34,915 bases of DNA from Alphaproteobacteria bacterium (GTDB lineage: Bacteria > Pseudomonadota > Alphaproteobacteria > Micropepsales > Micropepsaceae), in contig PKWC01000072.1 in assembly GCA_003131925.1 (NCBI GenBank), positions 36,938-71,852 of the forward strand, written 5' to 3'. The first letter of the stretch is position 1, and each line of letters opens with the position of its first letter. The notes under the pieces are model-generated. The model saw only the letters and a list, made by a program, of their open reading frames with translations, searched no databases and was not told the DNA's origin. The position numbers and the translations under genes were made by a program. Below, piece by piece: positions 3,562 to 7,951 of the stretch.

Positions 3562-4278
3562 ATGCGGCGGAAACCTGCCGCGACGGGAAAGGCCGGACGT
3601 TCGGCGGACGACCTGCCGTCGCTGATCGCAGGTCTGTCGCGGCATTATTCCTTCCAGGCTCCGCTTTCGGATCCGCTCAGCCTCATCCTGTGGGAAAACA
3701 TCGGCTATCTGATCGACGACGCGCGACGGCAGGCCCTGTTCGACGAATTCCGCGCGCGCATCGGCATCCACGCCGAGAAAATCGCGCGCGCCCCACATGC
3801 GCTACTCCTGGACATTGCGAAACGTGGCGGAATGCGGCCCGAGTTACGCGTGGAACGCTGGCGGCGCATCGCCGAAATTGTTCTCGACACATGTGGCGGA
3901 GATCTTTCGGCGGCGCTGCGCGCGATGCCGGCGTCAAAAGCGCGGACCCTCCTCAAGCGATTTCCCTCCATCGGCGACCCCGGGGCCGACCGGATTCTTT
4001 TGTTCTGCGGCATCGACGTGCGGCCGTCGCTCGACTCCAACGGGTTGCGCACTCTGGTGCGCCTCGGATTTGTCGTTCCCGGGGCATCCTACGCCGCGAC
4101 CTACAGGGCTGCGATTGCCTGTCTCGATCGCATGGGTCCTCGCAAAGCGGACTGGCTGATCTCCGCGCACATGCTCCTCCGCGAGCACGGCCGAAATCTC
4201 TGCAAGCGCGCCGTTCCTCTGTGCCTGGCGTGTCCGCTGGACAAAGCTTGCGCGCATGCGCCGGCAGCAGGGCTTTAG
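3562..4278 (+). CDS. Endonuclease III-like HhH-GPD protein with C-terminal Fe-S cysteines
   Basis: 238 aa; HhH-like segment FPSIGDPGADRILLFCGID and Cys-rich C-terminus CKRAVPLCLACPLDKAC. Confidence 0.8.
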   Translation: MRRKPAATGKAGRSADDLPSLIAGLSRHYSFQAPLSDPLSLILWENIGYLIDDARRQALFDEFRARIGIHAEKIARAPHALLLDIAKRGGMRPELRVERWRRIAEIVLDTCGGDLSAALRAMPASKARTLLKRFPSIGDPGADRILLFCGIDVRPSLDSNGLRTLVRLGFVVPGASYAATYRAAIACLDRMGPRKADWLISAHMLLREHGRNLCKRAVPLCLACPLDKACAHAPAAGL

Positions 4279-4365: not shown

Positions 4366-4437
4366 GCGGGCGTAGTTCAGTGGTAGAACGACAGCTTCCC
4401 AAGCTGTATGTCGAGGGTTCGATTCCCTTCGCCCGCT
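4366..4437 (+). tRNA. tRNA-Gly (CCC)
   Basis: Cloverleaf folded by eye: acceptor GCGGGCG/CGCCCGC, anticodon arm ACAGC-TTCCCAA-GCTGT, T arm GAGGG-TTCGATT-CCCTT. No encoded CCA. Confidence 0.95.
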
Positions 4438-4618
4438 CTCGACTTAGCTGGTTTCGCCGCTCAGTTTTGCACTAAGTTTTGCAGAATTCGTTCTCTGCTC
4501 GTACTCATCGACGAGTCGGATCAGTTCTGCCTTGCGCTCGTCTTTTTTTACATACGCTCGACGCGCATGATCTCGCCAATCGCCGCAAGTCTTGGTAGTG
4601 TTGCCGAGGGAGGACCGA

Positions 4619-5617
4619 ATGAGAAATTGGGATGCCGTGAATCTACTTCTTCAATTGGCTTTCGGAATGTGGATTCTCGGTCCTCCAGCCGCAGCAAATG
4701 AAACCTACACGGTATTCGACCCCCAGGGCTCCACGGCAACTTATGCGACCGCGATCAACAACGATGGCGCTGCCGTGGGCTACTGCGATTGTGGTGGCTT
4801 AAATGGGTTCTTGAGAGGGGCGGACGGAACAATCACCATATTCGCGGTTCCAAACTCACAAGAAACATTCGCACTCGCGATCAACGACGGCGGAACGGCT
4901 GTGGGGTATTATGAGGATTTCAGTAACAACATAGCCGGCTTTCTGCGAACCGCGGATGGAAACATATCCATATTTTCGGTACCAAAATCGACGAGAACGA
5001 TTCCGCTTAGCATCAACTCGAAAGGTGCCGTTGCGGGGTGGTATTACGACAGCAAGTTTGAGAGCCACGGCTTTGTACGGGAGGCCAGCGGCAAGTTTGT
5101 CAAGTTTGATCCTTCTGGATCAATTCTGACGCAGGCCACAGGAATCAACGGTTCAAAAATCGTCACGGGATGGTATCAGCCAAGCATTGGTCCAATTCAC
5201 GGTTTTATGCGAACCTCTGACGGATCAATAACATCGTTCGATCCAACTGGCTCAGCGAATACCTATGCTTGGGGCATAAATCACGATGGCGCAGTTGTGG
5301 GTTATTTCTATGATGATTTGAACATCCGCCACGGATTTGTACGTGCATCTGATGATTCTATTGTTGAATTTGATCCCAAAGATGCGACCGATACGGCTCC
5401 TTACGCCCTGAATCGCGAGGGAGCAATCACCGGCGCTTACGTAGATAAACAAGCGGTGCGGCACGGATTTGTTCGAAAACCCGATGGCACAATCAAAAAA
5501 CTCGATCCGCCGAATTCCATTAGTACTGTTTCCTCCGGCATCAACGACCGTTCCGTGGTAACAGGGTTTTTCTCTGACAGCTTAGAAATATTGCATGGCT
5601 TCATTGGAAGCCCATAA
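4619..5617 (+). CDS. HAF-repeat extracellular protein (TIGR02913-like tandem repeats)
   Basis: Signal-like N-terminus (LLLQLAFGMWILGPPAAANE), then about seven repeats of pattern AINxxGxVVGxYxD...HGFxRxxDGxIxxFDPxGS. ATG 4619 preceded by gagggagga. Confidence 0.85.
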   Translation: MRNWDAVNLLLQLAFGMWILGPPAAANETYTVFDPQGSTATYATAINNDGAAVGYCDCGGLNGFLRGADGTITIFAVPNSQETFALAINDGGTAVGYYEDFSNNIAGFLRTADGNISIFSVPKSTRTIPLSINSKGAVAGWYYDSKFESHGFVREASGKFVKFDPSGSILTQATGINGSKIVTGWYQPSIGPIHGFMRTSDGSITSFDPTGSANTYAWGINHDGAVVGYFYDDLNIRHGFVRASDDSIVEFDPKDATDTAPYALNREGAITGAYVDKQAVRHGFVRKPDGTIKKLDPPNSISTVSSGINDRSVVTGFFSDSLEILHGFIGSP

Positions 5618-5652
5618 GGAACCCGCGGCTATCCGCGCGGTAGGAGTCCCGC

Positions 5653-6624
5653 ATGGGCAGAGCTCGCCGGGCTATCAATAACTTTATGGCGACATTCAGA
5701 AACCGATTGGCTGATTTGGCCAGCCGCGCGCGAAGCGTGATCGAACGCACTTTGTTCCTGTTCGTGCTCAGCATCGCCGTCCCGCTCTGGTTTTCCGATG
5801 GTGACGCCATGATTGTCATCGGCGGCGTCATTCTAGGAGCGCTTCTTACAGTTCTGGCCCTTGTTACTACCACCAATCTTTCTACTGGCAGCCGTTTTGT
5901 ATGGGGCGCGATTGTTATAGTGGCCATCGCTGCCGACGGAGCATTTGTGAATTGGCACAAGCACCCAGAGGCATGGCCGTTTAGAACAGAATTGACGCTG
6001 CCGGCAACGCCGTTTGCTTCTCCTCCCGACACCAAACTAGTGTCGGTTAAGATCATCAGCCATCTTATGCAGGTGTCACCAGTACAGCCGCACGCCATGA
6101 CAATCTTCGCGGCGATGGGGTATCTTCCAAACCAAAAATACGTTCTGCATCCAATCTCGAATTTGATTTATGTCGAACTAACGGGGGAAAACCCCAAACC
6201 TGTCTCTGCTGCTGGCTATACGATTCAAGGTTACAATGGTGATTGGAAAGATGTTTGCACGGTTCATTTCGTAGAGTTAAACCTTGTCAACGTACAAAAC
6301 GACCGAAATCCGAAGTCATTGTTGGTATTCGAGTTACCATCCCAAAATATGGATGCGGCACTAAGTAGTACTGCTATCGAGTATGGTCATAGCATCAAAG
6401 CGTTTGTTGCGATCTGGTGCCCCGAAACGCGCGGCGTATGTTCTTATGGCAAACTTCGCATGCATATACGCGATACGCTCGGAGGAGATTTATATGCTGA
6501 ATTGCACAATGTTGCTTCATCGAACATGACGCAACTGGAACGCGGTGCCCTCATCGTCGGAAGGAAACATCACATCCCAGCCACGGCGACGACGTTCGAC
6601 TATACATGCCCGGAAGTACACTAG
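5653..6624 (+). CDS. Hypothetical protein with two predicted N-terminal TM helices
   Basis: 323 aa ORF; TLFLFVLSIAVPLWF and AMIVIGGVILGALLTVLALVTTT, then soluble domain; no family recognised. Confidence 0.75.
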   Translation: MGRARRAINNFMATFRNRLADLASRARSVIERTLFLFVLSIAVPLWFSDGDAMIVIGGVILGALLTVLALVTTTNLSTGSRFVWGAIVIVAIAADGAFVNWHKHPEAWPFRTELTLPATPFASPPDTKLVSVKIISHLMQVSPVQPHAMTIFAAMGYLPNQKYVLHPISNLIYVELTGENPKPVSAAGYTIQGYNGDWKDVCTVHFVELNLVNVQNDRNPKSLLVFELPSQNMDAALSSTAIEYGHSIKAFVAIWCPETRGVCSYGKLRMHIRDTLGGDLYAELHNVASSNMTQLERGALIVGRKHHIPATATTFDYTCPEVH

Positions 6625-6844
6625 ATATCCTCCAACCGCAGCCCATCCATTTCCAATGCCGCCAGACAGGCAAGGAAGAACGTAGCCGCAATCGTCCCAC
6701 GCGCGAGCGTGGCCGTGATGCGGCATCAGGAGTTTCGAATTTCACACGCGCGAGTTTTGCATCCGATTCACAAGTTATTGAAATGTAAGGGAAGGCAGGG
6801 GCGTTTTTTTGCGGCTAAGCCGTTGACGATCAAGGCGAAACATG

Positions 6845-6888
6845 AGCTTCCCAAGCTGTATGTCGAGGGTTCGATTCCTTTCGCCGCT
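6845..6888 (+). repeat. Partial copy of tRNA-Gly 3' half (putative displaced att site)
   Basis: 34-bp exact match to 4393-4426, then one substitution and a 1-nt deletion relative to the tRNA 3' end; lacks the 5' half, so not a functional tRNA. Confidence 0.85.
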
Positions 6889-6910
6889 CCAATCAATTCA
6901 AGTTGGTGTT

Positions 6911-7951
6911 TCAGGTTTTGACGAACCGCGCCTTCACAAAGTTCCACGCGAGGCCGGCTGTCACAAATCCTGCGATTTCGAGTGCAGCAAGAGATCCAAT
7001 GTCGTTCTTTGGCAGCGTGTCGGATGGCCCGGCGAGAAGCGGCGGCGAAAAGAGGGGGTGAAAGCGTGACTCGAAATACGCGTTGGAGACCAGTTCGTTC
7101 GAATCCTGGAATGCTTCCTCGATCTGCCTGGCAACGGCGCTGGAGATGATGAATCTGCTGCCGCCGCGGCGCCGCTGAAGCACTCTCACGATACGTCCTC
7201 GGAAGGGAGCGATGCGCCTGGCGATTCCTGGCGACAGGCGGCGGTTCATCGCGCGCAGGAAGGCGAGCGATTCGGCGTCGAGCGATTCGTTGAAACGGTG
7301 AACCGGCTGAAGCCTCGCGTGATCGAAACCGGTCGCGCTGGCGAAATCGGCGAGAAGATCGCCACCGGGGAAATCCGTCGGCTCGAACCGCCGGGCGAAG
7401 ATGTTCTCGCGTCCGAACGCCTGCGCCCATCGGCCGAGCAGCCGCGAATAGTCGGCGAGCCCGGGCGGACCCCGAAAGTGAAATTCCTTCGTGCCGCCTT
7501 CCCACACGATGTTCGTGTACCGGCTGACCAGAAAATCGGTTTGGTTTCGGAGATAAACGACAATCTTCGTCTCTCGCGCAATGCCGTCGCACAACGCCTT
7601 GATGCGCGCGAGTTCGGCAGGCGAGCGAAGCCGGGAGCTCAAAAGCTCATTCGAGAATACGAGTGTACTTGCGCCGCTGGCAGCGGTTTCCTTCTCGAGA
7701 GAATCCGCGAATTCCGCGCGGAAACGGCTCACGCTTTCCTGGTCGCCGATGCCGAGCGTGCGCCGCGCCCCTTCGATCCGCGCATCGTCGAGAGCGAAGG
7801 CGGTCAGCCCATAGTGATTGGTCGCGCCTGGCGTCTGTGGATACAGATAGCCCTGCGACAGGAGCGCGGCCCTGTTCAGTGCAAGATAGTTCCGGATCGA
7901 GGTGCTGCCGGTTTTTTCAGTCCCGATATGCAGCCAGCACTGCGCAATCAT
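6911..7951 (-). CDS. Sulfotransferase-like protein
   Basis: 346 aa; N-terminal P-loop-like HIGTEKTGSTSIRNYLALNRAAL typical of PAPS-dependent sulfotransferase folds. Confidence 0.65.
   Translation of the reverse strand: MIAQCWLHIGTEKTGSTSIRNYLALNRAALLSQGYLYPQTPGATNHYGLTAFALDDARIEGARRTLGIGDQESVSRFRAEFADSLEKETAASGASTLVFSNELLSSRLRSPAELARIKALCDGIARETKIVVYLRNQTDFLVSRYTNIVWEGGTKEFHFRGPPGLADYSRLLGRWAQAFGRENIFARRFEPTDFPGGDLLADFASATGFDHARLQPVHRFNESLDAESLAFLRAMNRRLSPGIARRIAPFRGRIVRVLQRRRGGSRFIISSAVARQIEEAFQDSNELVSNAYFESRFHPLFSPPLLAGPSDTLPKNDIGSLAALEIAGFVTAGLAWNFVKARFVKT

Follow-up and report, generated by a model that had tools for sequence, protein, structure and literature searches.

The segment from 4439 to 6889 of the window, by which we mean the whole 34,915-nucleotide stretch analyzed here, is very probably what remains of an integrative element belonging to one family of tyrosine integrases with tRNA-Gly as its target. 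It is best read as a decayed, CIME-like (cis-mobilizable element) unit, movable only by a helper integrase. Its host is a Rhizomicrobium-type soil bacterium.

Boundaries, composition, and gene content

The island lies between an intact tRNA-Gly(CCC) gene and a displaced copy of the 3' half of this gene (Table 1). The exact 34-nucleotide repeat announced in the preliminary description is real (4393-4426 = 6845-6878), and the match extends to 40 of 41 nucleotides over 4393-4433 and 6845-6885. If a 1-nucleotide deletion is allowed for, the right copy reaches the 3' end of the tRNA (positions 28 to 73 of the 73-nucleotide query, 96%). Besides this deletion, it carries one C-to-T exchange, and the mutations previously ascribed to it are thus present. 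It is a half tRNA, covering positions 28 to 73, and not a decayed duplicate of the full gene. With the same 73-nucleotide query, the 3' half was matched just twice in the 3.79-Mb assembly, the tRNA itself aside; a third match is a separate tRNA-Gly gene (TCC).

As had been noted, the DNA between the two cores is AT richer and holds two genes. Its GC content (4439-6844) is 50.8%, compared to 62.5% in the remaining window, and its tetranucleotide distance of 0.434 places it outside all 103 size-matched control windows (0.199 ± 0.032; maximum, 0.313), a strong deviation by both measures. The island measures about 2.4 to 2.45 kb and contains two open reading frames (ORFs) of at least 300 amino acids (323 to 341), both intact. 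No integrase family was matched within 4439-6844, and a search of the host's own genome for PF00589 gave no match at this locus.

The product of ORF1 scored above the cutoff of NCBIfam TIGR02913. HAF-repeat matches of this type were found in just 5 of the 61 genomes searched, and these proteins are strongly expanded in the host genome (27 matches) and in one relative, G034 (24 matches). ORF2 has only remote homologues in relatives and none in GTDB genomes; a sequence search of a structure database returned nothing, and an AlphaFold model computed without an alignment was set aside (pLDDT of 39). Neither ORF matched a transfer family or a phage family (Pfam, NCBIfam), and no phage-interfering or packaging family of the PICI/P4 satellite type was recognized in the unit (Pfam, NCBIfam, PADLOC).

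Table 1. Features of the island at tRNA-Gly(CCC) and of its flanks, in window coordinates
Feature	Position	Strand	Remark
Left flank, DNA glycosylase-like gene	3562-4278	+	weak NCBIfam match; syntenic with G003
tRNA-Gly(CCC), intact	4366-4438	+	ARAGORN, Rfam
Left attachment core (tRNA 3' half)	4393-4438	+	part of tRNA-Gly(CCC)
Paired P' arm-type sites, left end, GTTTTGCA CTAA GTTTTGCA	4464-4483	+	just downstream of tRNA; reads GTTTTGCACTAAGTTTTGCA, paired GTTTTRCA sites
Integrase C-terminus remnant, RAYVKKDERKAELIRLVDEYEQRT	4489-4560	-	motif of presumed catalytic Tyr
ORF1, HAF-repeat protein	4592-5617	+	341 aa from TTG 4592 or 332 aa from ATG 4619
ORF2	5653-6624	+	323 aa; hydrophobic N-terminal part; no family match
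P arm-type site, GTTTTGCA	6754-6761	+	at -91 from right core
Second P site, degenerate, GTTTTTTTGC	6803-6812	+	near -42 to -33 (~-39)
Right attachment core (displaced tRNA 3' half)	6845-6889	+	tRNA positions 28-73
Right flank, sulfotransferase-like gene	6911-7951	-	Sulfotransfer_3 below cutoff

Attachment sites and integrase remnant

Both attL and attR are retained, with core copies and arm sites at each end of the island. The paired P' sites and the site at -91 are intact, and the second P site, near -39, is degenerate. When 41 genomes were searched for the paired-site motif, all four matches to the pattern GTTTTRCANNNNNTTTTRCA within the genus adjoined copies of the tRNA-Gly 3' half (two in the host genome and two in G018); the flanks of two further matches, in other genera, give no sign of att sites. 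Among 84,980 GTDB genomes, a tRNA-Gly 3' end followed by paired sites was found at 11 loci, in Rhizomicrobium relatives, Bradyrhizobium, Hyphomicrobiales, Pseudolabrys, and Zavarzinia, and the same combination was present on one viral contig in IMG/VR. Arm sites lie at equivalent positions in G032, G026, G018, G030 (as a variant), G025, and G061. The -91 site, as GTTTTRCA or with one mismatch, recurs in the window, on a second contig of the host (C144, described below), in G025, in G032, and on contig C8 of G061, and it stands at -93 in the viral contig. Two isolated phages, Mesorhizobium vB_MseS-P1 and Rhizobium RHEph27, also have the paired sites next to their integrase genes, together with a core resembling tRNA-Gly. 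Because this layout is common to congeners, other Alphaproteobacteria, and a viral contig, and its paired sites also to isolated phages, the window ends keep the att architecture of one identifiable tyrosine integrase family.

The preliminary description had stated that no integrase is present. This is true of an integrase gene, but a C-terminal remnant of one persists beside the left arm sites. The minus strand is open from stop to stop over 4447-4650, and the remnant reads tail to tail into the tRNA, as in intact relatives. We scored a 24-column profile of the family tail against 149,474 translated 24-mers from six loci. The window tail, a match of only 24 residues, ranked second with a score of 30.2 (next, 18.5), behind a genuine integrase on contig C260 of the host genome (42.1), which is itself included in the profile. 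A frameshift-tolerant alignment of the window tail scored 17.2 against a shuffle maximum of 15.7. Since the full 190-position profile by itself gives just E = 0.56, the assignment depends on the tail profile in combination with position and frame. Over the stretch shared by the window and C144 tails, six codons differ, all six by synonymous third-position changes, and both tails therefore descend from genes under selection.

Members of this integrase family occur in phages, plasmid records, and islands. They lie tail to tail with tRNA-Gly or an att core at L125, L126, and L132 and in the viral contig (L136/L156). At the Bradyrhizobium locus L129, the C-terminal part of a family integrase occupies the equivalent place, and the integrase frame runs through the arm sites (TVKPAVKL; SAKLSAKL in the window). 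No closer intact homologue of the window tail was found in 69 congeners; the tail peptide gave matches no better than chance in congeners outside the host genome and no match among plasmids.

The genome was also searched, as had been proposed, for an integrase serving tRNA-Gly(CCC), and none was recognized (assembly 91.6% complete). Because such a cognate helper was not recognized, present mobility of the island is doubtful. The only sibling recognized in the host genome is the distantly related C260 integrase, which stands at tRNA-Pro, not tRNA-Gly. This gene (L118, 5806-7043), of the same broad family, lies 7 bp from tRNA-Pro(TGG) in tail-to-tail orientation and is accompanied by an GTTTTGTC/GTTTTGCA site pair; its contig has two more recombinase matches. 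In G003, an integrase C-terminal fragment (C105, 21682-21957; L083, L119) lies tail to tail with tRNA-Gly(TCC), a further decayed insertion left by this family at a second glycine tRNA.

The tRNA-Gly site in relatives and a second locus in the host

The tRNA-Gly(CCC) site is an insertion hotspot. A search for alternative cargo, suggested in the preliminary description, found different islands at tRNA-Gly in congeners: the 21-kb island of G032 (JAHFQC010000011.1) encodes type I restriction-modification as well as a tyrosine integrase, and the 3.7-kb island of G030, which holds a LysR gene and molybdenum-hydroxylase genes, yielded neither an integrase nor a recognizable integrase tail. The two window genes were absent from this site in the relatives examined, and the right copy is a half tRNA; neither of the observations named in the preliminary description as refuting it was thus made. 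Many congeners have a single tRNA-Gly(CCC) without arm sites, but no empty site with both flanks syntenic was found among the relatives. G003, the sole relative syntenic on both sides, is occupied by a different AT-richer stretch downstream of the tRNA. A candidate decayed right core in G003 (TTTGATTCCCGTCGCCTCCAAATGT) was suggestive only (E = 0.065) and was not retained. In Rhizomicrobium electricum (G061), the element ends are spread over four contigs: a left end at a tRNA, a single right end, and two sites resembling joints. Its several core-plus-left-arm joints, which lie away from the tRNA, suggest that tandem insertion occurs.

Other arrangements were also observed. In G009 (L034/L035), G011 (L036), and G014 (L042), the 5' half of the tRNA (positions 1 to 37) is duplicated instead, which suggests elements that replace this half. 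An integrase adjoins the 5'-half copy in G009, where a TIR gene and a TPR-S gene lie deeper inside, and G011 has a gene matching PADLOC PDC-S31. In G018, intact paired arm sites follow a degenerate tRNA-Gly core (contig C491; L038, 1030-1127) at a place away from the tRNA-Gly gene, about 310 bp downstream of a tRNA-Ser.

The third half-tRNA copy of the host genome is on contig C144, where sequence of the right end borders it on one side and sequence of the left end on the opposite side. This order, right end-core-left end, is that of an excised circle or a tandem joint, which suggests past circularization of an element with these ends. The insertion, about 2.4 kb long (G000:C144 12344-14761; L009), separates an MFS gene from an Lrp-family gene; in G027 and G028, about 20 bp lie between these two genes. 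It has a 55-nucleotide, 80% repeat with a palindromic core near both edges and also holds a GIY-YIG-like gene and another gene whose similarity to PD-T7-4 is weak. The simplest reading is that a circular form may have been captured at a non-tRNA site via the edge repeats. A chimeric assembly at the 46-nucleotide core is an unlikely source of the joint: the order glycosylase-tRNA-SpoVR is common to the window contig and G003, and the order MFS-Lrp-trxB is common to C144 and relatives, both of which a swap would disrupt.

Origin of the island and comparison with known systems

The intact ancestor would have carried an integrase gene reading toward the tRNA, with arm sites in or beside the 3' end of that gene, and its attP would have recombined with the tRNA-Gly(CCC) gene. 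The element's own copy would thereby have replaced the 3' half of the tRNA, displacing the original half to the right end. We infer that the integrase gene was then deleted save for its last codons, so that attL and attR would have come to enclose 2.4 kb with two cargo genes, and that the displaced half-tRNA, free of selection, began to decay. The island would now be immobile by itself; because most arm sites are kept, a related integrase might still excise it in trans, and the insertion of a new element into attR might allow excision in cis. The preliminary description had recognized the geometry of tRNA-targeting tyrosine integrases, in good agreement with the arm sites and the integrase tail, and had proposed a decayed or trans-mobilized unit. 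Decay is directly supported, because the integrase tail has the frame, strand, and position expected of it, beside intact arm sites, and the trans-mobilized branch is disfavored.

That branch would make the island an integrase-less satellite, for which the lack of an integrase is the normal state and which borrows the integrase of a phage or island using the same tRNA. The mostly well preserved arm sites and the two intact ORFs would fit such a unit, as would the integrase-less G030 island with similar ends at the same tRNA and the C144 joint, which suggests past circularization of such ends. However, the window and C144 integrase tails diverged under coding selection, implying autonomous ancestors, the integrase-less units have no cargo genes in common, and decay has affected the right core and one of the P sites. 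We therefore consider a satellite improbable. It is just as hard to credit that this bacterial group harbors a pool of small integrase-less cargo units at tRNA-Gly with conserved att arms common to all; if it did, integrases from phages or islands, all of one family, would move the units in trans, and integrase loss would be a stable lifestyle. That the half-tRNA repeat is the product of a chance duplication or rearrangement, with ordinary chromosome in between, is extremely unlikely: nothing but the missing syntenic empty site speaks for it, whereas the fixed-distance arm sites common to phage attP sites, the integrase tail, the alternative islands at the same tRNA, and the strong composition shift all argue against it.

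If the island is the remnant of an integrative element, its parent could have been a temperate prophage and not a conjugative or other island with the same ends. Among described integrases with this att layout, those of the isolated Rhizobium and Mesorhizobium phages are nearest, but no phage family was recognized in either ORF (Pfam, NCBIfam), and G032 has a nonphage cargo, type I restriction-modification, at a site of this type. A prophage parent is conceivable but less likely than not.

The unit is a decayed mobile island of an already known general kind. CIMEs have been defined for derivatives of ICEs and IMEs, mostly streptococcal (PMC5704250, PMC7563491), and the classical ones range from 1.2 to 13 kb (PMC7563491). 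Like them, the window unit has lost its integrase and transfer genes, has kept attL and attR, has cargo, and, at about 2.4 kb, falls within this size range. Unlike them, it may derive from a phage or other island instead of an ICE or IME, and its arm sites and integrase tail are recognizable. It also differs from phage satellites of the PICI/P4 type, as it has no integrase gene and no phage-interfering or packaging family recognized by Pfam, NCBIfam, or PADLOC. The 21-kb island of G032 shares the tRNA and the arm sites with it and differs by its integrase and large cargo; the G030 island shares the tRNA, a similar arm layout, and the lack of a detected integrase, and differs in cargo. Phages vB_MseS-P1 (PP232116.1) and RHEph27 (MW980074.1) resemble the unit in their tRNA-Gly-like core with paired arm sites, their attP core with paired GTTTTACA sites adjoining the 3' end of the integrase gene; unlike the unit, they are complete phages with an intact integrase. 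Single, unpaired decayed islands are missed by the signature-gene method of PMC7563491, as stated in that paper, and are detected by the att signature used here, a half tRNA-Gly with GTTTTRCA at set distances. Overall, one integrase family links phages, defense-type islands, and gene-poor remnants in Alphaproteobacteria.
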